The notes below the pieces were generated by a model. That model saw only the letters and a list, made by a program, of their open reading frames with translations, did no database searches and had not been told where the DNA came from. From contig NZ_JAQYWD010000028.1 in NCBI RefSeq assembly GCF_030145145.1, positions 1 to 64,000 on the forward strand: a DNA stretch of 64,000 nucleotides. The letters are read 5' to 3'. Both the position numbers and the translations under genes were made by a program. This document shows, piece after piece, positions 8,703 to 40,380 of this stretch. The stretch is from Desulfobacula sp. (lineage in GTDB: Bacteria; Desulfobacterota; Desulfobacteria; Desulfobacterales; Desulfobacteraceae). How positions within the stretch are numbered: the first letter of the stretch is position 1; each line of letters starts with the position of its first letter.

Positions 8703-8801
8703 TTATGAATGCGCCGCCAACCTGGTCCGGTTATATTTAATCAGCAGTTGCAGATCCTGGCAGCAGCACGAGCAACGATTCAATTCATTGCCGGCAAACA
8801 C

Positions 8802-9605
8802 TCAACCATGGGTTTTAGCCAATTTTTTAAACATATTGGCAAGGCCGGTGGACAAAGTATAAATATTTTCTATGGGCAGGTTTTTATCTGCGGTATTGTC
8901 AAAAAACAGATTTAGATCCGATTCCAGCCCGTCTTCGGCATGATTGTAGCAAATCAACATGGGCAGCAGCGGCAATGGATATATCATCAGGGAAATATCT
9001 GCATCATAATGATTTTGAACGGGCCGGCCGTTAAACAACTTTATGATGTCCTTGAAAAAAGAGGGATTTGTATCGGCCACCTGTTTAAACGCCCCCACAC
9101 ATTGATGTTCAAAAAACCGGGCCCAGTCCTTGGATGTTTCAAGTTCTCTGAAAGGCACCCATGATCCGGTCAAGGGTATCCCTTTGCTGGACAATACAAA
9201 ATTTAGCACCGGTGGAGCGATCCAGGAATTGACATGAATATCGGTTGAGATTCCACCATTTTTATCAATGCCGAAATCTTTGCCGAAAATTTTTAAGATG
9301 AGCCTGCCATTTGAAAATTTACCCCCCAGCTTTTCAGCTCTGGATTCAAGATCGATCTGTTTTATCCGGTCTTTTAACTGATGCATCACCTTGATATAGT
9401 CCTGCTCAAATGTGGACGCATATTCTAATTTTTTGGAACCATATTCTTCCAGAATGTCTTCACCAATAAACGGGCACTCACTCAAAGCGATCTGGCCCTG
9501 GAACACAGCCGCGGCAAAGGCTAAGCAAGTGGGTTTATTGCATTTTCGACAATTGGTTTTTTCCAATAATTTAAAGACCTCCATGGTATTTTTAAATTCA
9601 CCCAT
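8802..9605 (-). CDS. DUF3786 protein with N-terminal Fe-S domain
   Basis: 267 aa. The N-terminus carries a four-cysteine Fe-S domain of the RnfB/CdhD type (NCRKCNKPTCLAFAAAVFQG with a further Cys in SECPF, about residues 18-45). The rest is a DUF3786 region with LGGKFSNGRLILKIFGKDFGI and PFRELETSKDW. DUF3786 proteins occur mainly in anaerobes and have no established function; a corrinoid or Fe-S role has been suggested by context only. The ATG at 9605 has AAAGGAGATAGTACC upstream. It stands alone between decayed regions. Confidence 0.82.
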   Translation of the reverse strand: MGEFKNTMEVFKLLEKTNCRKCNKPTCLAFAAAVFQGQIALSECPFIGEDILEEYGSKKLEYASTFEQDYIKVMHQLKDRIKQIDLESRAEKLGGKFSNGRLILKIFGKDFGIDKNGGISTDIHVNSWIAPPVLNFVLSSKGIPLTGSWVPFRELETSKDWARFFEHQCVGAFKQVADTNPSFFKDIIKLFNGRPVQNHYDADISLMIYPLPLLPMLICYNHAEDGLESDLNLFFDNTADKNLPIENIYTLSTGLANMFKKLAKTHG

Positions 9606-9878: not shown

Positions 9879-9994
9879 ATACAGCATTGAGCAAAGGACG
9901 GGACGCTCTTTATGAGAACTTGCGGCCGTTGGTTTAATCCGGCATTAAAATCAAAAAAGGTTGGGAGTTGAGCAAAGGGGGGGGGGGATTGCGT

Positions 9995-10026
9995 ATCAGG
10001 CGGTTTTAAGGACAAAACCGCCTGAT
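9995..10026 (-). terminator. Terminator hairpin of the fdhA/hdr cluster
   Basis: A perfect 13-bp stem (9995-10007 with 10014-10026) with a 6-nt loop lies 14 nt past the fdhA stop. No T tract follows; instead there is a run of 11 G on the plus strand at 9977-9987. It is likely the 3' end of the long leftward operon. Confidence 0.6.
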
Positions 10027-10039
10027 GATCGTTTAGACG

Positions 10040-12079
10040 TTAGGCTTTTTCGAGTTTTACCGCACACACCTTGAATTCCGGTATTTTGGCAATGGGATCA
10101 AAGGCCGGGTTGGTCAATTTGTTGACATTTGCCTCTTCAAAATGGAATGGCATGAACACAAGCCCCGGAGAGACCCGCTCTGTAATCATTATCTTTGTCA
10201 GGATCTCACCCCTTCGGGAGGCCATTTTAACTTGACTGCCATCGCAGACGTCCAGGGTTTTGGCATCCGCAGGATTCATTTCAAGAAATCCTTCCCGCAC
10301 TTCAAAATCAAGGGATTCGGAATTCCGGGTCATGGTGCCGGTATGGTAATGGGCATAGACCCGGCCTGTGGTCATCCAGAACGGATACTCATCATCCACC
10401 ACTTCATTCGGCGGCTTGTGACCAATGGCATGGAATAATCCTTTTCCCCGGGTAAACTTCCCATCTTTGTGCAGAAACGGGGTTCCCGGATGTTCTTTGG
10501 TGGGACAGGGCCACTGGAGTCCGGGTCCTTCAAGCCGGTCATAGCTGATTCCCGCATAGGACGGGGTAAGGCTTGCGATTTCATCAAAGATTTCTTGGGG
10601 AGACGTATACGTCATTTCAAACCCGAACCGGTTGGATATGTCTTGAATGATCTCCCAATCCGGTTTTGAGTCTCCCACCGGATCAACCGCTTTTCTCACC
10701 CGTGTTACGCGTCTTTCCGTGTTGGCAAAGGTGCCGTCTTTTTCTGCAAAGGATGTTCCCGGCAGCACCACATCAGCCAGTTTTGCCGTGGGCGTAAGAA
10801 AGATATCCTGGACAATGAGCAGTTCGACTTTTTCCAGGGCTTTGACCACATGATTGGCATCCGGATCAGACACAACCGGATTTTCACCCATGATCCACAG
10901 GGCTTTCACTTCATCCTTTTCAATACCTGACAGCATTTCAGGAAGGGTCAAACCGATATTAGAGGGCAATTCATCCACGCCCCAGGCCTGGGCAAACTTT
11001 TTATTGGCAGGCCCAAGGGTCACGGGTTGATATCCGGTGTATACATTGGGAAGTGCGCCCATATCACAGGCACCCTGCACATTGTTCTGCCCCCGAAGCG
11101 GATTGACCCCTGATCCGAGTTTTCCAATATTTCCCGTGAGCATCGCCAGATTGGCCAGGGATTTTACATTATCCACCCCGGTGGTATGCTGGGTAATGCC
11201 CATGCAATACACAATGGAAGCACTGCCGGCTTCGGCATAGAGTGTGGCAAGTGTTTCTATATCCGCTACAGAGACACCGGTAATCTGGGACGCCTCTTCA
11301 ACGCTGAAATCATCAAGAGCATCTTTAAAGGCTTGAAACGCCTCTGTATTTTCCGCAATAAAGGTGTCGTCCTGAAGATTTTTATCCAGGATCACCCGCA
11401 TCATCCCGTTTAATAACGCCACATCGGTTCCAAGATTGTGCTGGATATAAAGCTCGGCAAAATCGGCTATTTGATTTTTTCTTGGATCCGCAACAATGAC
11501 TTTCCCCCCATTTTCAATGGCCCTGAAAATCCGGGTGGCCACCAACGGATGGGAAGTTGCGGTGTTGGATCCGATAATAAATATGGTATCTGACAACTCA
11601 AGTTCAGACACTGCATTTGTCATTGCTCCACTGCCAAACGCTGCGGCAAGACCTGCCACGGTGGAGGAATGTCAGAGCCGGGCACAATGATCAACATTGT
11701 TGGTGCCGATGGCGGCCCTGGCAAACTTCTGCATGAGATAATTTTCTTCATTGGTCACTTTGGCTGATGCAAAAAACCCGATGGCATCAGACCCGTTGGC
11801 CTCTTTTATCTCCTTGAGTTTTGATGCGGTAAACGCAAGGGCTTCTTCCCAGGAAACCTCTGTCAATTCCCCATTTTTTCTTAACAATGGCTGTTTCAAT
11901 CTTCTCTCGGATTGAACAAATTGATGGACATTCCATCCCTTGATGCAAAGCTTGCCTTCATTTACCGGGCTGGTTTTACAGGGAATGGTACCGGTCAGTT
12001 TGCCATCAAGGGACTCAAGAAAAAAATTGCATCCACATCCGCAATAGGTGCAGGTTGTAAGCGTATTCCTGTAATCCAT
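10040..12079 (-). CDS. fdhA: Selenocysteine formate dehydrogenase catalytic subunit
   Basis: Mo/W-bis-MGD formate dehydrogenase oxidising formate to CO2 (or the reverse), 679 aa with Sec at residue 136 encoded by TGA at 11672-11674. The N-terminal 4Fe-4S site is CTYCGCGC (C10, C13, C17) with C45. The active site reads NVDHCARLUHSSTVAGLA, matching the family's C-x-x-U-H signature. MGD-binding motifs follow (MGITQHTTGVDNV, NPLRGQNNVQGACDMG), and the C-terminal molydopterin domain contains RVYAHYHTGTMTR. An SECIS-like hairpin lies directly 3' of the TGA. Standard gene calling would split it into 135- and 539-aa ORFs. It is the last gene of the Hdr/MvhD cluster, so its electrons most likely pass to the Fe-S subunit next door and on to HdrA. 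Confidence 0.95.
11643..11659 (-). promoter_or_regulatory. SECIS-like hairpin of fdhA
   Basis: On the coding strand GUGGC pairs with GCCGC (one G-U) around loop AGGUCUU, starting 17 nt after the UGA. AGGUCU is also the apical loop of the E. coli fdhF SECIS element. Confidence 0.75.
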
Positions 12080-12104
12080 TATCTTTCCTCTTTATAGTAA
12101 CCCC

Positions 12105-12908
12105 TTACTTTTCAGGTGCAGGACCCATTAAGCTTAAGGGTGATTTTTCATTTTTATTGATCCCGGATGTAAATCCGAATTCAGTATTCATAATCTCAGC
12201 TGTCTTTTTATATAAAAGTCGTAACGGAATATCAGACGGACAGGCTTCTTCACAAAGTCCGCAGTCTATACACCGGTCGGCCATATGCATGGCCCGGGTC
12301 AAATGGAACACCGGGATATCCACTGGAAGGTCCCCTTTTGATACCAGATCTTCACATTCAAGGCTGCATTCCCTGCAAAAACACATGGGACAGATATTCC
12401 GGCAACCATAGCATTTTACGCACTTTGAAAACTGATCCATCCAAAAAGAAAACCGGGTTGACAGATCCTTGTTGTCCATATCTTCCACACCCTGTTGAGA
12501 GATCCCCTCAAATTTTTCTCCTGCGACAATGTCATCCGGATACGGTTTTTTGCATTCGCACGCCTGGGCAAGGGATTCAGGACAGGGGATACCGATGGGA
12601 ACCACTTTATCCGGTTCCAACTGGTTTAGTCTGTAAAGGCCATAAAGACCTCTCTCATCACACCCCCGAACCAGAACCCCGAACACATCATCCGGATACT
12701 GTCTGGCAATGGTGCAAAGAACCCTGTTCAGCGGATACCTTGCATCCCCCGATTTTTCTGTATCACCCAGACAAAGCGTGTCCAGGTCGTCCCCTTTTTG
12801 AAACAAACAGGGTGCCACATGGCCATTGGCTGTTACAAGTGCGACAACCCCCTTTACAGACCCCTCTGAAAGAAGCTCGTTTATTTTTTCTTTTACTCTA
12901 TCAATCAT
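12105..12908 (-). CDS. Fe-S electron-transfer subunit beside FdhA (FdhB/HdrC-like)
   Basis: 267 aa from ATG 12908, chosen because AGGT lies 7 nt upstream; longer ATG/TTG starts have poorer spacing. The middle carries a Cys-rich segment KCVKCYGCRNICPMCFCREC (about 170-190), and near the C-terminus is a second cluster RCIDCGLCEEACPSDIP. The N-terminal about 130 residues contain further cysteines (ACECKKPYP). The layout resembles the beta subunits that connect cytoplasmic FdhA to Hdr/Mvh complexes in sulfate reducers. It likely ferries electrons between FdhA and MvhD/HdrA. The stop lies 25 bp before fdhA. Confidence 0.75.
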   Translation of the reverse strand: MIDRVKEKINELLSEGSVKGVVALVTANGHVAPCLFQKGDDLDTLCLGDTEKSGDARYPLNRVLCTIARQYPDDVFGVLVRGCDERGLYGLYRLNQLEPDKVVPIGIPCPESLAQACECKKPYPDDIVAGEKFEGISQQGVEDMDNKDLSTRFSFWMDQFSKCVKCYGCRNICPMCFCRECSLECEDLVSKGDLPVDIPVFHLTRAMHMADRCIDCGLCEEACPSDIPLRLLYKKTAEIMNTEFGFTSGINKNEKSPLSLMGPAPEK

Positions 12909-13000
12909 AAACATACCTATGATAAGTTGTTCGGTTAACAATTAATGGCGATGCCCAGAATAATCTGACGATCATATTGTTGTATGCCTTTTAATAACTG

Positions 13001-13438
13001 CTAAGCGACATTTTTAGATGAATCTTTCTTTAATGGTGACGGTCCAATTTTCTTAAGGGCATCAATAAAATCGTTGATCTCCTCAACAAACTCAGGTGCC
13101 TCGGCTGAGGATACCCATCTGGCCCGAAGCCGCTCTTGTTCAACGCCGCAAAAACTCAGCATCTGGGAAAGAACCGTTACCCGTTTTTCAGCAGAATAAT
13201 TACCATACAGGTAATTGCATTCGCTCAAATGTCAGCCACCCACAAAAACGCCGTCAACCCCTTGTTGAAAGGCACGTAATACATGATGGGGAGACACGCT
13301 CCCTGAGCACATTACCCGGATGATACGAATATTTGCCGGGTACTGCATACGACTGACCCCAGCCAGGTCAGCAGCTGCATATGCTCACCAGGTACACAGA
13401 AAACATATGATATCGGGCTCAAAATTATTGTCGCTCAT
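13001..13438 (-). CDS. mvhD: MvhD-family Fe-S protein with two selenocysteines
   Basis: 145 aa from ATG 13438, with AGGAAAG upstream. MvhD carries a 2Fe-2S cluster between the hydrogenase or formate dehydrogenase and HdrA. The family's five cysteines align as C15, U18 (TGA 13385-13387), C44, U69 (TGA 13232-13234) and C74. The context is [16 protein letters not shown], then IIRVMCSG, then [18 protein letters not shown]. Both TGAs replace otherwise conserved Cys codons and both are followed by stable hairpins. The second MvhD in the same operon has Cys at the first of these positions. ORF callers would report only the last 75 codons from a false TTG start. Confidence 0.93.
13198..13216 (-). promoter_or_regulatory. 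SECIS-like hairpin after Sec69 of mvhD (13001-13438)
   Basis: AAUUACC pairs perfectly with GGUAAUU around loop UGUAU; the loop begins 22 nt after the UGA. The hairpin in the paralogue at 16986-17004 has the same place and shape with a different stem sequence. Confidence 0.75.
13353..13371 (-). promoter_or_regulatory. SECIS-like hairpin after Sec18 of mvhD (13001-13438)
   Basis: CUGACC pairs perfectly with GGUCAG around loop UGGCUGG, starting 19 nt after the UGA. A lower stem (GCAUA with its partner near CGUAUGC) could extend it. Confidence 0.65.
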
Positions 13439-13529
13439 TGACTTCTTTCCTTATATATATTTAAAATTTTCCACACGTTTGGTTTATTTTTTCAGCAACC
13501 GTTCATAGGGTTCCTGTTTTTTTTGACGG

Positions 13530-15203
13530 TTATGCCGCACCAATCTGTGCCAGCAGCTGCTGGGGTTTAAACCCCCGAAGCATGGCACTGTGAGATGGAC
13601 AGGTAGCCGCACAATTTCCACATCCTTTACAAAGCACCTCATTGACCTCACAGATTCGCTTGTCCCTGTTATAGGTAATGGCTTCATACGGACACATGGG
13701 CAGACACGCCATGCAGCCCACACAGGCATCCGGGTTGATCTGGGCCACAATGGCACTTTTCACCAGTTTTTCCTTGAACAAAATGGCCGCCACCCTTGAG
13801 GCAACACCAATCCCCTGGGTTCGGGCTTCCGTAGATGTCGCAGGATACCGTCCGGACCCGCAGACAAAAATACCATCTGCAGCAAAATCAAGGGGACGAA
13901 GCTTTGCATGGGCTTCCAGAAAAAATCCATTCTGGTCTGTGGGCACCCGCAGCATATTGGCCAGCTTCCCTGAATCATTTCTCGGCACAAGGGGAGTGGA
14001 CAGGACAACGAGATCGGCATCCAGTTCCTGGGTCTTCCCCGTGACCGCCTGAAAGAATGTCACTTTCCCATTTTCAACTTCCGGGGGATTATCAGGGGTG
14101 TACACATCAAATCGAATGCCTTTGCCCCTGGCATCCCAGAGCATCTGCTCCTTATGGGTGCCATACATCTGCATGTCCCGATACAGGACCCTCACATCGG
14201 TCAAGGGGTATTTATCCTTGATGAGCATGGCATTTTTCACGCCGATCATGCAGCAAATTCTTGAACAATATTCTCGTTCCGGGGTTCTTGCCCCGGCACA
14301 CTGGATAAAAACCACCCGTTTCGCATCCAGTTTATCTCGTTGAAGCAGCTGTTCCAGCTGCATTAATGAAATCACCTGACGACCATCGTACCCAAGTATC
14401 CCCTCCGGGATCAGCGGGACCGCACCGGTGGCAACCACCATACACCCCACCTGTTCTTCAACCAGGCCGGTTTGGGTTTCAATTTTGACATCATAATTAC
14501 CGATATATCCACCGGTTTCCGTCACCGTTGCACTGGTATAGCAGGTAATATTAGACTGGGATCGAACATCATCAATGATCTGGGAAAGGGCCTCTTTTGC
14601 CATCACCCCTGAATCCAGTTGATGTACTTGTTGCAGAAGACCGCCAAGACTGGCTGTTTTTTCAACCAGGATGACGTCCAGCCCCATATCTCCCAGGGCC
14701 TGGGCCGCAGACAACCCGGCAATGCCACCGCCAATCACCAGAATTTTCCGGATCAGGGAGGATTCAATCTCATTTAAGGCCTCCAGTCCGGCACTCTTGG
14801 CCACGCCCATGCAGATCAATTCTTTCGCCTTTTGGGTGGCGGCATCTCTTGTTCCCATATGAACCCAGGAACACTGGTCCCGGATGTTGACCATCTCAAA
14901 CAGATACGGATTAAGGCCAACCTCAGCGCAGGAACTTGAAAACAACGGCTGATGCGTCCTGGGTGAACAGGATGCCACCACCACCCGGGTCAGGTTCTGC
15001 TCGGTTATGGCCTTTTTGATCTCCCCGATTCCGGCCTCCGAGCAGGTGTAAAGATTTTCCTTTACATACACCACATGGGGAAGGGTTTTGGCGTATTCAG
15101 CAACGTCAGGACAATCCAGATGGCCGGCAATATTTGAACCGCAGTCACAAACGAATACGCCGATTCGAGGTGCTTCATAAGGTGTTAAAGTATGTGTATT
15201 CAT
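13530..15203 (-). CDS. HdrA-like flavoprotein, C-terminal module of a split HdrA
   Basis: 557 aa from ATG 15203 (AAAGG upstream). It begins with a Cys-rich module (GVFVCDCGSNIAG, ENLYTCSEAG, VVASCSPRTHQPLF) and then a FAD Rossmann fold (KILVIGGGIAGLSAAQAL). The centre has CAGARTPEREYCSRICC, and two C-terminal 4Fe-4S sites follow: CVGCMACLPMCPYEAI and CKGCGNCAATCPS. It corresponds to the second half of the fused HdrA at 17236-20271. The Cys/Sec motif that normally follows the flavin-binding region is absent here and is supplied by the preceding ORF, 16 bp upstream. Together the two ORFs probably form one HdrA-type electron-transfer unit. Confidence 0.85.
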   Translation of the reverse strand: MNTHTLTPYEAPRIGVFVCDCGSNIAGHLDCPDVAEYAKTLPHVVYVKENLYTCSEAGIGEIKKAITEQNLTRVVVASCSPRTHQPLFSSSCAEVGLNPYLFEMVNIRDQCSWVHMGTRDAATQKAKELICMGVAKSAGLEALNEIESSLIRKILVIGGGIAGLSAAQALGDMGLDVILVEKTASLGGLLQQVHQLDSGVMAKEALSQIIDDVRSQSNITCYTSATVTETGGYIGNYDVKIETQTGLVEEQVGCMVVATGAVPLIPEGILGYDGRQVISLMQLEQLLQRDKLDAKRVVFIQCAGARTPEREYCSRICCMIGVKNAMLIKDKYPLTDVRVLYRDMQMYGTHKEQMLWDARGKGIRFDVYTPDNPPEVENGKVTFFQAVTGKTQELDADLVVLSTPLVPRNDSGKLANMLRVPTDQNGFFLEAHAKLRPLDFAADGIFVCGSGRYPATSTEARTQGIGVASRVAAILFKEKLVKSAIVAQINPDACVGCMACLPMCPYEAITYNRDKRICEVNEVLCKGCGNCAATCPSHSAMLRGFKPQQLLAQIGAA

Positions 15204-15219
15204 ATTTGGCAACCTTTCT

Positions 15220-16764
15220 TTATGATGCCTTTTGGTCGTTTTTTTTGATCACGGTCTGCGCTGCTCTTGCAGCAGCAGAACTCGCCTGGGCAACAGATTC
15301 AGGGATATCCATGGGGCTGTGGGCACACCCGCAGACATAGATTCCGTCCCGGGAGGTATCCAGGGGATTGGAAGGATCAGTTTTAAAAAATCCAAACCGA
15401 TCCAGATCAATTCCTAGTGTATCGGCAATTTTCTGGGCCCCTTTTACCGGTCCACAGGCAGTGGCCAGCACAACCAGGTCAAAGGCCTGTCGTTGAATCT
15501 TCTGTTCCCGGGTGTCCTCATAAATCAGAACCGGGCATTCATCCGGATTCCTGGTGATCTCTGCCACCCTGGACCGCTTATAGGAAATATTGGAATTATT
15601 GCCGCCCCGGATCTTATACTCTTCAAACCCTTTTCCCACCGCTCTGATATCCATCCCGAAAATCACCGTATGGGTATCATTGTCATGTTCATGGGCAATA
15701 ATGGCTTCCTTGATGGAATGCATGCAGCAATATCCGGAACAAAACGGATAAAACCGCAAATCCCTTGATCCCACGCATTGGATAAAGGCGATCTTCTTCG
15801 CAGTGGTAAACCCTTTGGCTTTTTCTTTCAAAACCGCAAGAGGGTTGGCATTCTCAAGATGGGCTTCAACCCTTTTAGCCCATTTATCCTGATCTTTTTC
15901 AAGGTCTTCACCGGGCTTCAGGCTGCCGTCCGTGTAAGCCGCATAAAATTCATCGCTCTTTTTCCCATGCGTCTTTTCAAACCGATCCAGGGCTTTTTGA
16001 GATTTTTTCACTTTTTTCTCAAGCTCAGCAATGGTGGCCGTTACCTTTCGATCGGACGGACGATAGATGTGTCCGGCCGTGGGCCCGGAGGCAGACAGGA
16101 ATCGTTCAAATTCCATGGCAGTGATCACGTTATCCAACTGGTTATAGCGATATTCAGGCATTCTGGACGGATCAAAAACATCATACCCCGTGGCCACAAC
16201 AACGGCCGCCACGGGCAGGTCAATAATGACGTCTGTCTGATCAAAATCAATGGCACCTGCCTCACATTTTTTCTGGCAGATCCCACATTTTTTCCCGTTC
16301 AACACCCGGCAATGATCCGGATCAATGGCATGGGTGGAGGGAATCCCCTGGGCAAACCAAGAATAGATGGCTTTGCGTTCTGCATGGCCTTCGTTATATA
16401 AATCCAGGACAGGGGTGGGGCAAACTTGTGCACAGGCACCGCACCCGGTACATTTATCTTCGTCCACATATCTTGCTTTTCTTCTGATGGTTGCCGTAAA
16501 ATTCCCGGCATCACCCTCTAGTCGTTCAAGCTCACTATACGCCAGAAGTTTTATATTGGGATGTCGACCGACATCCAGCATCTTGGGCGAAAGTATTCAG
16601 ATGGCACAGTCATTGGTCGGAAATGTCTTATCAAGCTGAGCCATTTTCCCGCCAATGGAAGGAAGGCTCTCCACAAGGTGGACCTTGAACCCCATCTCTG
16701 CCAGATCCAGTGAGGACTGGATACCGGCAATTCCGCCGCCAAGGACAAGTATATCCTTTGTCAC
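15220..16764 (-). CDS. hdrA: HdrA-like flavoprotein with selenocysteine, N-terminal module
   Basis: 514 aa. The start is GTG 16764, chosen for a strong AGGAGGTAGATT upstream and because it gives the complete FAD fold ([19 protein letters not shown]). Sec56 is TGA 16597-16599 in [17 protein letters not shown], where HdrA proteins normally have Cys; Sec at this site is known from methanogen HdrA. Ferredoxin sites follow: [15 protein letters not shown] and [13 protein letters not shown]. Then come the conserved [12 protein letters not shown] and [10 protein letters not shown] charged insertion rich in Lys (about 215-290, [16 protein letters not shown]) is not seen in the fused paralogue. The distal half is encoded separately by the next ORF. 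Confidence 0.93.
16559..16576 (-). promoter_or_regulatory. SECIS-like hairpin of hdrA (15220-16764)
   Basis: GGAUGUC pairs perfectly with GACAUCC around loop GGUC; the loop begins 27 nt after the UGA. Confidence 0.75.
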
Positions 16765-16803
16765 AATCTACCTCCTGTTACCGCTCGTTCATATTATCAA
16801 CCA

Positions 16804-17223
16804 TCAGGCCACCTGTTTGATATTGGCAGGCCCTAAGGCTTTTATGGTTTCAGTAAATTCATTTGCCACCTGGGCAAATTTTGTCCCTTCAGCTGAAGAG
16901 ATCCATGCTAACCGGGTTCTTTTCGGATCAATGCCCAGAAGCTGTAACAATTCACTGGTCATTCCAAACATCTTTTGTGCCTTTACATTACCATCCAGGT
17001 AATGACAGTCCCCAATGTGTCAGCCCGAGACCAGAACCCCGTCTGCCCCCTTTTCAAAGGCTTTCAAAATATAATTGGGATTGATCCCCCCTGAACACAT
17101 TACCCTGACAATTCTCATATTCGGCGGATACTGAAATCGACTCACGCCTGCAAGATCTGCTGCTGCATAGGAACACCAGTTGCAGGCAAATGTTAAAATC
17201 CGTGGATTAAAATCCGTTGACAT
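16804..17223 (-). CDS. mvhD: MvhD-family Fe-S protein with one selenocysteine
   Basis: 139 aa from ATG 17223 (AAAGGA with a 6-nt spacer). Cluster ligands are C14 and C17 ([13 protein letters not shown]), C43 (RVMCSGG), Sec68 (TGA 17020-17022) and C73 in [18 protein letters not shown]. The length and all surrounding residues fit MvhD, and translation continues to a TGA at 16804-16806, which follows the usual C-terminus. It sits 12 bp downstream of the fused HdrA. It likely shuttles electrons between HdrA and a dehydrogenase partner. A caller that stops at the Sec codon would miss its C-terminal half. Confidence 0.93.
16986..17004 (-). promoter_or_regulatory. SECIS-like hairpin of mvhD (16804-17223)
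   Basis: CAUUACC pairs perfectly with GGUAAUG around loop UGGAU; the loop begins 22 nt after the UGA. The offset is identical to that after Sec69 of the paralogue. Confidence 0.78.
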
Positions 17224-17235
17224 TTTCAATCCTTT

Positions 17236-20200
17236 CTATTGTTCCAGTGCTGCCTCAACCATGGCCAGCACCTCATTATCGTAATGGAAAACACTGGCAG
17301 CCCCTGTGGGACAAGCAGCCGCACAGGCACCACATCCCTTGCAAAGGGCCTGCTGAACCGTGGCAATTTTCACCCCGCTGTCCAGCTCATTTACCGCAAT
17401 CGCCCCGAACGCACACGTCTCTTCGCAGGCACCACATCCCCGGCACAGGGCTTCATTCACCTGGGACACCACCCCATCAACGGTAACCGTTTCTTTGGAC
17501 AACACAACCGTGGCCCGGGAAACAGCCGCCTTTGCCTGGGCGATGCTCTCTTCAATGGGTTTCGGGTAATGGGCCATCCCGGCTAAAAAGATACCGTCCG
17601 TGGCAAAATCAACCGGCCGGAGTTTGGCATGGGCTTCCATGAAAAACTGATCATCATTCAAGGAAAGCTTGAACATCTGGGCCAGGGCCACATTATCCTC
17701 GGGGACAATGGCAGAGGCAAGGACCACCAGGTCCGTTCCAATCTCAAGATCCATGTCAAGCACATGATCTTTTACCGTCACACAAAGATCAGCGCCCTGT
17801 TTTTCAACCACGGGTTTATGCTCATAGGCATACCGGATAAAGATCACCCCTTTGTCCCGGGCTTCCGCGTAGAGTTCTTCTCTTTGTCCATAGGTTCTGA
17901 TATCCCTGTAAATCACATACACTTCCATATCAGGATTCAGGTCTTTGAATTTAACGGCAGACTTTACGGAATGGGTACAGCAAACCTTTGAACAATACAT
18001 TCGTTCCGGTTCCCTTGACCCCACACACTGAATGAACACAGCCGTGTTCGTGGTCTTGACAAAATCGCTATCATTGGCCATTTTCCGATCAAGTTCCAAA
18101 TGGGTCAAAATCCGTTCATCTTCGCCATACAGGTATTCCGTGGGTTGTCTTTCCGTTGCACCGGTGGTAATGATGACGGCCCCATGATCGATGACCTGTT
18201 CTTTATCATCGGTGGCAAGGGTGGTCTGAAAATTTCCAATAAACCCGGATGTTGCCGATACCCGGGTGCTGGTAAACACATCAATCAATGCATGATCCTG
18301 GACTTCTTGAACCAGGGCCTTCACGTTCTCGGAAATGGATTCACCATTCCAGGTATAATTCAGGCTGAGGGCATTACCGCCCAGCACCTCTTTTTTTTCA
18401 ACCAGGGTAGTGAAGAATCCCTGCCGGGCAAGCCCGAGGGCTGCGGTAAGGCCAGACACCCCGCCGCCAATCACCAGTCCTTTTTGTACAATGCCCACGG
18501 ATGGCTGGGGCAATGGCCGCATCAAAGCCACCTTTGTAACGGCGATGCGGACCAGATCTTTGGCTTTTATCGTGGCCAGCTCGGGCTCTTTTGAATGCAC
18601 CCAGGAGCACTGGTTCCTGATGTTGGCCATTTCAATGAGATATTTATTCAAACCCGAATCCCTCAGGGTTTCCTGGAAAAGCGGTTCATGGGTTCTCGGG
18701 GTACACGCAGCCACCACGATGCGATTCAGGTCGTTCTCTTGAATCACCTGTTTCATCTTGTCCTGGGTATCCTGGGAACAGGTAAACATGTTCTCTTCCA
18801 CAAAGGCGACATGGGGCAGGGTCCTTGCATATTCAGCAACCGACGGAACGTCCACGATCCCCCCGATATTGGTCCCGCAATTGCAGACAAACACACCAAT
18901 CCTCGGATCCTGGCTGACAACATCTCTTTCTGCCGGATATTCCTTGACCTTGGTCAGGCTCCCCCGAAACGGGGAAAGGCTGGTGCCGGCATCACAGGCC
19001 GCTGCACTGGCTTCCATGACGGCCAGGGGAATATCTTTGGGCTCCTGGAGGGCGCCGCACACATAAACGCCTTTACGGGATGTTTCCACCGGTGAAAAAC
19101 TGGACGTTACAACAAAATTATTGGCATTGAGCTCAACACCCATATCCTTGACAGCCTGGGCAAGATCGGCAGGGGTTTCCATTCCCACGGACAGGACCAC
19201 CATGTCAAAGACTTCCTCGATCTTTCGCCCGTCTTCCATCACATAGGTACAAATGAGTTTTTTGTCATCATCCTCTGTAATGGTATGAATTCGGGACCTG
19301 ACAAACCGGACACCCTGATCTTTTGCCCGCTCATAGTATTTTTCAAAATCCTTTCCATAGGTTCTCATATCCATCAAAAAGATGGCGGCCTCAAACTCAC
19401 CGGAAATATGATCCTTTGCCATCATGGCTTCTTTGACGGCGTACATGCAGCAGACAGACGAGCAATATTTATTATCACATTTGTTCTGATCCCTTGATCC
19501 GACACACTGGAGCCAGGCTATTTTTCTGGGCTCAGCCTTGTCCGGAAAGCATTGGATATGGCCCAGGGTGGGACCGCCGGCAGACAAAATTCGTTCAAAC
19601 TCAATACTGGTAACGACATTGGGAAAATTTGAATACTGAAGGTTGTCCAATTTTGACGGATCAAACGGTTTAAACCCGGCTGCCAGGATAACCGACCCCA
19701 CATGAAGGGTCTGCATCTGTTCCGTATCACCATAATTGATGGCCCCGGTGGGACAGACCTTTTCACACGTGCCGCATTTATCCTTGAGCAGTTTCAAACA
19801 CCGTGACGGATCAATGGCATACTTTAACGGCACGGCCTGGGGATATGACACATAAATGGCTTTTCGCTTATCCAGCCCTTCATTAAACTCGTCCGGGGTT
19901 TTCCCGGGACATTTTTTCACACATTCTCCACAGGCAATGCACTTGTCCATGTCCACATACCTGGGTGCTTGTTTGATTACGACGGTAAAATCACCCGCCT
20001 CTCCATCAATCTGTTGAACCGTGGAAAGGGTGTGAAGTTGAATATTCAGATGCCGGCCGACCTCGACCAGTTTAGGTGAAATGACTCACATGGCACAGTC
20101 ATTGGTAGGAAATGTCTTGTCCAGCTGTGCCATCACCCCACCGATGGAGGGGGCTTTTTCAATCAGGTGAACCAAATAACCTGAATCTGCCAGATCAAGG

Positions 20201-20271
20201 GCCGCCTGCATCCCGGCAATACCGGAACCGACAACCATGACCGAACCGTTACTATGATTGTTTTTTCCCAT
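17236..20271 (-). CDS. hdrA: Fused double-module HdrA with selenocysteine
   Basis: 1011 aa from ATG 20271 (GGAG upstream). The N-terminal half is a full HdrA: FAD fold [18 protein letters not shown], Sec62 (TGA 20086-20088) in [20 protein letters not shown], ferredoxin sites [13 protein letters not shown] and [13 protein letters not shown], and [20 protein letters not shown]. The C-terminal half repeats the scheme: [15 protein letters not shown], a second FAD fold [18 protein letters not shown] and two ferredoxin sites [15 protein letters not shown] and [15 protein letters not shown]. HdrA is the flavin site of heterodisulfide-reductase-type bifurcating complexes. Here it is coupled to HdrBC upstream and MvhD downstream. 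Confidence 0.94.
20053..20070 (-). promoter_or_regulatory. SECIS-like hairpin of fused hdrA
   Basis: CUGGUCG pairs with CGGCCGG (two G-U) around loop AGGU; the loop begins 22 nt after the UGA. Confidence 0.7.
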
Positions 20272-20312
20272 TGATGAACTCCAGTTTCTTATATATGCCT
20301 TGTATCCTGCTG

Positions 20313-21428
20313 CTACTCGATGTTATCCGCCAGATAGGAGGCAAGGTCTATGATATCAATATCATGATTTGTATTTTTCGTTGCACATGTCAGATGAATC
20401 TGGCATTTGGGACATGCCGTAATAATCGTCTGGGCACCGACCGCTTCTGCCTCTTTGAGCCGTTTTATCTGCATGACCTTTGAACAGGTAGAACATTCCA
20501 TCCAGGCCGTGGTTCCACAGCAGACAGCATTTTCCCGGTTATGCTCCATTTCTGACAAAAGGGTTCCGGGGACAAGGGAAATCAAATCCCTGGGGGCATC
20601 ATACACCCCGGACCGCCGTCCCAGTCTACAGGGGTCCTGGTAGGTCACTGTCCGGGTGCTGCCGGTTTTAAAAGAAATGTCTGCACCAGGCAGCTCTTTT
20701 GCCAGGAACTCTGTGATATGAACAATTTCAAAGGGCAATGGGCCCAGCTGATCCGTATAGGCTTCCCGGAACATGGCATATCCTTCCGGACAGCCAAATA
20801 TAACGGTTTTTGCCCCTGTTGCTGCAATGGTCTCAATATTTTTTCTGGCAAGGGTTAAAAAGGTATCATCATCCCCGCACCAGAAGGCATCATGCCCGCA
20901 ACAGCACTCGTCATTGCTGATGACCGGTTCAATCCCCAGTTTATTCAGCAGCAACAGATTATTTTTAGCGGATTCAATCATGTGCAGGTCCAGATATTGA
21001 AATGCCACATCATAATAAGTGATACAACCGGTAAAATAAAAGTACTCCCCTTTTTCAGAAATTTTTCCCGCCTGTTTTGCCCATGCGATCCTGTCTTGTT
21101 TCACGCCCTTGGCCTGAATGCTGGTAATCGTATGAAACATGCCGTGGTGGCTCAATTTGGGAACATTTTCTGCCTGTCTTGCTTTATTACGGTAGGTACG
21201 GATAAATGCAGGGAAGTCGATTTCAACCGGACACCGGTCCGAACATCGTGAACAGGAGAGGCATGCCCAGATATCCTTGCTTTGAAGAATATCCTCTTCA
21301 GGTTCATCCAATGTCCGTTTAATCATCTGACGCGGTGAAAAGCCTTCAAGATCCATGGCAACAGGGCAACTGCCTGTACAAACCCCGCACTCCATACAGT
21401 AATCAATTTGTTGTTTTGAAAGCTGCAT
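20313..21428 (-). CDS. HdrC-HdrB fusion (HdrD-like Fe-S protein)
   Basis: 371 aa. The HdrC part (1-90) has two 4Fe-4S sites, [13 protein letters not shown] and [13 protein letters not shown]. The HdrB part has two CCG domains. In the first, the motif is altered at the end (TGC, ECCCGHD, then FGCPEGYAM where CPxC is usual). The second is complete ([29 protein letters not shown]). HdrB's non-cubane clusters reduce disulfides in methanogens; in sulfate reducers the physiological acceptor is uncertain (DsrC-trisulfide or a thiol have been considered). It is the first gene of the cluster, 41 bp ahead of the fused HdrA. The ATG lacks a strong ribosome site. Confidence 0.9.
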
Positions 21429-39415: not shown

Positions 39416-39432
39416 ACTAAAAGGTGACTCCC

Positions 39433-40380
39433 ATGGAAAAAAAAACAAAAGACTTCAAACACCTTGAAAAATGGCAAAGCACCCTGGCCAATTGTATCCG
39501 ATGCGGATATTGTTTTGAACACTGCCCCATGTTCAAGCACACCAGCTGGGAATCTGATGCCCCAAGGGCAAAAATCATTACCGCTTTCGGACTGTTATCC
39601 GGAGAGGTTGAACCATCGGAATCAGCAGCAGATAAAATGTTTTCCTGTTTTTTTTGTGGCCGATGTGAAGCGGCCTGTTCTTCAGGGGTTCCCTTAACTG
39701 AAATTTTTATTGATGCGAAAAAAGATCTTGTTGAAATGGGGCTCAAAGGCCCTGGAACCACCTCGACAACCGAATTAAATTGCGCCCGCTGTCTCATTTG
39801 TGTGGGATCCTGCCCCCATGATGCCCGGTTCTATGACGGGAAAGGGATTGCCACGGATCCGACCAAATGCCAGTCCTGTGGTATCTGCCTTGATGTCTGT
39901 CCCGCAGGAGCCGCTAAAATTAAAAATGATTTTGGAACCAACAGTGACAATTTGATTGAGAGGGCCGCCACCTTTTTAGACACCCATGAATCGGCCAAGG
40001 CCATCATTTTTGCCTGTAACTGGTCCTATTACCCCGAACTTCAGGCATCCCTGCTCCCGGAATCCGAGACCAGGGACAAGGGGTATGAAATCCTGGTAAA
40101 CATGTGCGGGGGACGTCTTGGCGCACACCTGCTCATGGCCCCCTTTCTTCACAATGCCTGGGGGGTGATGGCCGCGGTCTGTCCGGACGGTGACTGCCGG
40201 CATGATGGCAACCTGAGGGCCAAAAAGGTCATTGAGACCCTACGCAATACCTTCAAAAGCATCGATATCAACCCGGAAAGAATTCAGCTCGTCCAGATCC
40301 CGGCCGGGGACAAGACATTGTTCCAGGCGGAAATTGATACATTTATTGACACGCTCAATCAACTGGGCCCCATACGATAA
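39433..40380 (+). CDS. Fe-S protein fused to an MvhD-like domain
   Basis: 315 aa from ATG 39433 (AAGGTG upstream). The N-terminal GlcF/HdrC-like part has CIRCGYCFEHCPM and CFFCGRCEAACS; two more ferredoxin sites follow, CARCLICVGSCPH and CQSCGICLDVCPAGA. The C-terminal about 130 residues are an MvhD-like domain: FACNWSYYPEL, VNMCGGRLG and AVCPDGDCRHDGNLRAKK. Of MvhD's five ligands the second is Ser (CNWS) where the Hdr-cluster MvhDs have Cys or Sec. It replaces the usual GlcF subunit of lactate dehydrogenase and suggests transfer of lactate electrons to an HdrA-type complex. Confidence 0.85.
   Translation: MEKKTKDFKHLEKWQSTLANCIRCGYCFEHCPMFKHTSWESDAPRAKIITAFGLLSGEVEPSESAADKMFSCFFCGRCEAACSSGVPLTEIFIDAKKDLVEMGLKGPGTTSTTELNCARCLICVGSCPHDARFYDGKGIATDPTKCQSCGICLDVCPAGAAKIKNDFGTNSDNLIERAATFLDTHESAKAIIFACNWSYYPELQASLLPESETRDKGYEILVNMCGGRLGAHLLMAPFLHNAWGVMAAVCPDGDCRHDGNLRAKKVIETLRNTFKSIDINPERIQLVQIPAGDKTLFQAEIDTFIDTLNQLGPIR

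Follow-up and report, generated by a model that had tools for sequence, protein, structure and literature searches.

The gene at 13001–13438 of the window, by which we mean the whole 64,000-nucleotide stretch of DNA that was analysed, raises the question of whether a small bacterial MvhD protein carries two selenocysteines (Sec), and whether both of them hold its iron–sulfur cluster. The original prediction had read residues 18 and 69 as TGA, in CTWU and GGUHLSEC contexts. Translation with TGA as Sec (U) bore this out and yielded a product of 145 aa with U18 and U69 and with Cys at residues 12, 15, 44, 74 and 97. The predicted coordinates were right and only the strand had been left out: the gene lies on the minus strand (Table 1), and the plus strand of the same interval lacks an open frame. 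Pfam placed the product in the FlpD/MvhD family (PF02662) with 176 bits against a cut-off of 22.3, residues 10–132 aligning to profile positions 1–123, and the product of the paralogue mvhD2 likewise scored far above the cut-off. Five conserved Cys columns, which we take to define the MvhD/FlpD family and which are also visible in the alignment, were all found in the mvhD product, with Cys at 15, 44 and 74 and Sec at 18 and 69. Both TGA codons thus occupy conserved cysteine columns of the family, as had been claimed, and the description of the paralogue as having Cys at the first site and Sec at the second was equally accurate. Profiles of NCBIfam matched below their curated scores. VhuD (NF045873) gave 143.6 bits against 215, and by this measure the product is related to VhuD, not filed under it; HdrA2 (NF040770) gave 179.1 bits against 1100, with a match that covered only profile positions 644–774 of 777, that is, the fused MvhD tail. 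The source genome held 14 PF02662 places, seven of them with in-frame TGA. Since the gene at 13001–13438 was the only one with two, the double TGA appeared to be more than chance.

Table 1 Features of the mvhD region and its gene row
Feature	Position	Strand	Remarks
mvhD, 145 codons + TAG stop	13001..13438 (13438..13001)	minus	in-frame TGA at codons 18 and 69 (Sec18, Sec69)
TGA codon 18 (Sec18)	13385..13387	minus	motif CTWU
TGA codon 69 (Sec69)	13232..13234	minus	motif GGUH (GGUHLSEC)
Hairpin 1, candidate SECIS of Sec18	13352..13372	minus	stem GCTGACCT/GGGTCAGT, loop GGCTG, loop start 20 nt after UGA
Hairpin 2, candidate SECIS of Sec69	13199..13215	minus	stem ATTACC/GGTAAT, loop TGTAT, loop start 22 nt after UGA
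mvhD2, paralogue	16804..17223 (17223..16804)	minus	Cys at site 1 (CNWC), Sec at site 2 (GUHIGDC)
mvhD2 TGA (Sec)	17020..17022	minus	column of Sec69
Hairpin after mvhD2 UGA	16986..17004	minus	CATTACC-TGGAT-GGTAATG
HdrA-like protein	13530..15212	minus	FAD module and two 4Fe-4S; directly upstream of mvhD
HdrA-like N-terminal half	15220..16764	minus	one TGA (Sec56, CAIU)
Long HdrA-like protein, 1011 aa	17236..20271	minus	one TGA (Sec62, CAMU)
CCG-domain iron–sulfur protein	20313..21428	minus	HdrB/HdrD/GlpC-like
4Fe-4S protein named FdhB	12105..12941	minus	directly downstream of mvhD; named by position and D. autotrophicum analogy
Formate dehydrogenase alpha subunit (FdhA)	10040..12079	minus	one TGA (Sec136)
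SECIS of FdhA UGA, positive control	11619..11677	minus	Rfam SECIS_3, 44.2 bits, below gathering score 63

To see how widespread the double-UGA form is, we scanned a species-level genome collection with an exact DNA pattern that required TGA at codons 18 and 69 together with Cys codons at 15, 44 and 74. Among 79 matching stretches, 70 proved to be MvhD genes on translation, and 9 were chance matches that were dropped for want of the DLAG/DAAG family motif. The 70 are loci, and genomes are fewer, as two assemblies contribute two each by accession prefix. Because columns 15, 44 and 74 and both TGAs were fixed by the pattern, their constancy in these loci is by construction. Judged by record titles, the carriers were mostly Desulfobacterota, namely sulfate reducers and their relatives from the Desulfobacteraceae, Desulfobulbaceae, Desulfohalobiaceae, Syntrophobacteraceae and Syntrophaceae; the gene was also found in Caldimicrobium (L036, L078), an Aminicenantes bin (L021) and candidate division B38 (L085). 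Desulfospira joergensenii and Desulfosediminicola flagellatus, both available in culture, are among the carriers. Within the window's order the pattern occurred in 13 of 291 sampled genomes and the reversed control pattern in none. A tree implied six changes of the double-Sec state, at least four of them forced by well supported branches; these counts are rough, given few columns and 74 open forks, with the window row merged with near-copies and gain indistinguishable from loss. The state has thus probably changed hands more than once. A plasmid search for the protein gave one match (44%, Ilyobacter).

Judged by substitution patterns, selection at the protein level persists beyond both UGAs: the median pN/pS relative to the window gene was 0.115 between the two codons and 0.331 after the second (n = 67 homologues). 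Within 118 codons of 68 double-UGA genes (the window's included), we found no TGA outside columns 18 and 69; three of the 71 genes had been left out as too short for this length. The Trp next to the UGA was encoded by TGG in 54/54 main-clade members. A reading of UGA as Trp was rejected on these two grounds, the confinement of TGA to two Cys columns and the TGG beside it. The source genome furthermore encodes SelB (346.7 bits) and a tRNA-Sec (76.5 bits, above the cut-off).

After each UGA of mvhD a SECIS-like hairpin was predicted (Table 1). In dinucleotide shuffles, hairpin 1 reached z = –1.99 and hairpin 2 z = –3.06; by the same measure neither the hairpin of mvhD2 (–0.36) nor the FdhA control (–0.84), whose loop reads GGUCU, was remarkable. 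Rfam, run over 9900–20400 with E up to 5, recognised neither MvhD hairpin and returned only the FdhA SECIS_3 and one unrelated weak match. When folding was compared with synonymous shuffles over 100 positions in 54 genes, the structure excess peaked at codons 18–22, with further low points at codons 66–69 and at codons 28–31, the latter away from any UGA. Synonymous entropy was computed for 54 dereplicated main-clade members (13 of the 68 genes lay outside the clade, and one near-copy was removed) on codons with amino-acid conservation > 0.9. With hairpin codons picked after fold prediction, it amounted to 0.16 in hairpin 1 (7 codons) and 0.03 in hairpin 2 (4 codons) versus 1.35 in 41 others, and 0/20,000 degeneracy-matched draws had entropy as low as the hairpin codons.

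This constraint followed the UGAs through the family. Members with Cys18 and Sec69 (n = 22, then 46) had frozen hairpin-2 codons (entropy 0 at codons 75, 76, 77 and 80, and 0.15 at codon 79) and free hairpin-1 codons. In those with Sec18 and Cys69 (n = 26), codons 24–27 of hairpin 1 were constrained (0.52–0.93 versus 0.92–1.95 in all-Cys members) and hairpin 2 was free, and all-Cys members (n = 26, then 72) were free at both. Across all lineages, the folding excess at column 69 distinguished UGA (n = 84, median z –1.00) from Cys (n = 99, 0.01; p = 2.8e-10); at column 18 the corresponding comparison by synonymous shuffles was not significant (p = 0.061), and several Sec18/Cys69 members adopted a different fold in the minimum-energy prediction. 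RNAalifold over 66 sequences gave little covariation in the hairpins, apparently owing to differences in pairing register between lineages; within the main clade the stems were nearly invariant. Each UGA thus has its own candidate SECIS hairpin, and synonymous constraint tracks each UGA. Two separately selected SECIS-like elements would therefore lie inside one 145-codon bacterial gene, and annotation that takes TGA as stop truncates mvhD after codon 17.

On these sequence data the double UGA is neither chance nor decay. That one or both UGAs are real stops, sequencing errors or decay, leaving a truncated product or a pseudogene, is hardly credible: UGA is very likely also a stop in this operon, because the mvhD2 frame runs on to a further TGA at 16804–16806 that is most likely its true stop, but the 70 further loci with both UGAs, the low pN/pS after each of them, the hairpin codons frozen in step with each UGA and the presence of SelB and tRNA-Sec all speak against it.

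The surroundings of mvhD are rich in similar codons. Between 10040 and 21428 (minus strand), TGA stands at Cys-type positions in five genes, giving six predicted Sec within about 10 kb (FdhA 1, MvhD1 2, HdrA-N 1, MvhD2 1, long HdrA 1). HdrA is split over adjacent genes on the minus strand, an N-terminal half with Sec (15220–16764) and a C-terminal half (13530–15212). For the product of 12105–12941, Pfam detected the 4Fe-4S part only, and we call it FdhB from its position and by analogy with Desulfobacterium autotrophicum HRM2, for whose hdr loci V and VI excerpts of PMC2702500 give an FdhB gene followed by an FdhA gene. Downstream of fdhA, a protein with DUF3786 and an Fe–S domain (8703–9605, minus strand) contains a TGA near its end (8802), which is probably a true stop.

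Much of this order recurred at the double-UGA loci. Counting only loci with enough flank, and with distance windows set in this analysis, we found the C-terminal part of HdrA upstream in 45/47 and a match to its N-terminal part upstream in 28/28; downstream, an FdhB-like gene was present in 48/55 and lacking in 7/55, and FdhA was present in 30/32 and lacking in 2/32. The paralogue mvhD2 was upstream in 13/27 and missing in 14/27. A looser count that included short-flank loci gave 62/64, 54/61, 44/48 and 16/30, and the stricter recount is preferred. Partner and paralogue are therefore both inconstant, as FdhB or FdhA is missing at some loci and mvhD2 at 14/27. In Caldimicrobium (L036:4966–7311) the genes after the double-Sec mvhD encode a multi-4Fe-4S protein and one with a methylenetetrahydrofolate reductase C-terminal domain (MetV-like), and at locus L077 a double-Sec MvhD lies beside an FrhB/FdhB-type protein. 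Since some double-Sec lineages thus adjoin other modules, the Sec pair is not tied to the formate dehydrogenase seen here.

Excerpts of PMC12350162 and PMC6019823 describe MvhD as a 2Fe-2S relay from formate dehydrogenase or hydrogenase to the bifurcating FAD of HdrA. Given this published role and the Hdr/Fdh gene order, the double-Sec MvhD most likely passes formate electrons to HdrA. The closest solved counterpart was 5odc_D, the MvhD of HdrABC–MvhAGD from Methanothermococcus thermolithotrophicus, which belongs to the same family and fold (E 5.7e-47, 50% identity); an AlphaFold model of the mvhD product (pLDDT 92.9) matched it with a TM score of 0.90. It has the same five columns, its residues 13, 16, 42, 67 and 72 aligning without gaps to 15, 18, 44, 69 and 74 of the mvhD product, and is in complex with HdrA. 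All five of its columns are Cys, however, versus Sec at 18 and 69 here, and its partner is a NiFe hydrogenase, whereas that of the mvhD product is most likely a formate dehydrogenase. An archaeal MvhD that links formate dehydrogenase to HdrA also aligned with the mvhD product (E 1.3e-39); unlike the bacterial protein here, its aligned sequence is without Sec, and it is also bound to Fmd. When sequences of two other lineages were searched against the PDB, chain 9sfi_K was absent among the matches listed.

Which of the five columns hold the cluster was read from an alignment of at least 256 distinct members, drawn from PF02662 places listed from 14 genomes, the family's best matches and the double-UGA loci; 20 of the 256 were gapped at one of these columns and set aside, and the alignment excludes three listed places that had no locus. 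Among the matches listed, 236 members were readable at all five columns. Columns 15, 44 and 74 were Cys in all of these, and column 69 was Cys or Sec in 236/236. Sites 18/69 were Cys/Cys in 73, Sec/Sec in 72, Cys/Sec in 46 and Sec/Cys in 26 of these listed members. In the remaining 19/236, column 18 was Asp (11), Gly (5) or Ser (3), with the other four columns kept. Sec beyond columns 18 and 69 was not found in the 233 of these 236 listed members that were checked. A separate alignment, which comprised the window's mvhD product and 79 of 91 proposed references (80 sequences), agreed: 15, 44, 69 and 74 were invariant and 18 only near-invariant. In the structural model, strands 1 to 3 end at or just ahead of residues 15, 44 and 69, and residue 18 immediately precedes the helix 19–28. 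The members that lack Cys or Sec at column 18 are distantly related, frequently part of fusion proteins, and may bind another cluster.

A 2Fe-2S cluster needs four protein ligands. As four columns stay and the fifth can be lost, 15, 44, 69 and 74 are indicated as the ligands and 18 as a neighbour. Sec69 is thus likely a cluster ligand and a better candidate than Sec18, which is probably a fifth residue beside the cluster and not a ligand. Columns 18 and 69 held nothing but Cys or Sec in the 121 close homologues that a motif search yielded, and the nonconserved residue named in the original prediction as a sign against it did not turn up among them. Its further suggestion, two Sec at one 2Fe-2S centre, stands as far as a two-Sec MvhD gene is concerned; a role of both as ligands is unsupported, as column 18 is lost in 19/236. 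The MvhD cluster ligands are not named in the excerpts of PMC12350162, PMC6019823, PMC6085437 and PMC12054007.

We thus favour, with a probability of about 0.7, a double-Sec MvhD made by read-through with one hairpin per UGA, encoded in the order HdrA–MvhD–FdhB–FdhA, with Sec69 as ligand and Sec18 in the second shell. Sec69 would replace one of the four cluster ligands and tune the cluster directly. Sec18, which immediately precedes the helix after strand 1, would be the fifth residue next to the cluster. From there, as a second-shell selenolate, it may adjust the potential or control the passage of electrons or protons to the flavin. The selenium pair recurs over many genomes, and probably only one Sec of the two holds the iron–sulfur cluster. 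To our knowledge, Sec at or beside an Fe–S cluster is rare in natural proteins.

A more dynamic arrangement can be imagined in which the pair swaps: in one particular redox or conformational state Sec18 would occupy an iron site as a hemilabile ligand and so gate electrons to the distant flavin. Four ligand places are matched by five conserved Cys columns, and the double-Sec state was gained or lost several times according to the six tree changes. According to excerpts of the review PMC6019823, > 30 Å lie between the MvhD cluster and the FAD of the crystal structure, and conformational changes are proposed. Many members are all-Cys or carry a single Sec, however, and in them the predicted swap would have to operate without Se as well; we regard it as quite improbable.

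Ligation of one 2Fe-2S cluster by both Sec, as 2 Cys/2 Sec with 15, 44 or 74 as the non-ligand, likewise seems rather unlikely. Column 18 lies three residues from Cys15, and Cys-x2-Cys pairs serve as cluster ligands in many ferredoxins; column 18 was Cys or Sec in 217/236 readable members among the matches listed, and the distant gapped member L012, which has no aligned residue at 15, keeps Cys18 although column 44 is Ala. Against this, the other four columns were unchanged in the 19 listed members with Asp, Gly or Ser at column 18, the side chain of Gly is unable to ligate iron, and 15, 44, 69 and 74 were the invariant Cys columns of the 80-sequence alignment. A cluster with two selenolate ligands, or with one and a swapping second, that gates electron entry to the bifurcating flavin may be entertained as a minority view next to the preferred one, with Sec69 as ligand and Sec18 in the second shell.

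Two Sec in an MvhD have precedent at the family level. A 2026 review table (PMC13188914, in excerpt) lists MvhD/VhuD (PF02662) with the motif CxxU and the number 2, which we took as the Sec count, the other families shown carrying 1; the same excerpt mentions multiple Sec in some archaeal FrhD/VhuD. The CxxU of archaeal VhuD equals site 1 of the mvhD product. According to excerpts of PMC9499178, archaeal selenoprotein genes have one or two Sec and a single SECIS each, whereas the mvhD described here is bacterial and has an intragenic hairpin after each UGA. Our exact-pattern scan for the double UGA found no archaeal MvhD, which other spacing or context could explain, and its sole archaeal match (L015) was a chance one. 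Among bacteria, excerpts of PMC1794560 report Sec-containing FrhD in Syntrophobacter fumaroxidans (8 FrhD), and those of PMC2702500 Sec-containing mvhD1, 2, 3 and 5 in D. autotrophicum. These deltaproteobacterial proteins share the bacterial group, the HdrA neighbours and Sec with the mvhD product; the number of Sec per MvhD is not given in the excerpts of either paper. No description of a bacterial two-Sec MvhD was found in the literature searched, the 2004/2007 selenoproteome papers and supplements lying outside the search. The bacterial form may stand in a supplementary table.

Finally, the PF02662 paralogues of the source genome cover all four states of sites 18/69 (Cys/Cys, Cys/Sec, Sec/Cys and Sec/Sec). 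As one fold thus occurs in every combination within one genome, the effect of each Se on the potential and gating of a bifurcating enzyme would be directly testable. A further PF02662 domain of the window (39424–40380, plus strand) is fused behind ferredoxin domains and has, by eye, Ser at column 18. A CDCCC group (L230, L234, L244 and kin) has Asp at column 18, and the loop that leads to its Cys74 is longer; several of its PF02662 domains lie in open frames of about 780 aa.
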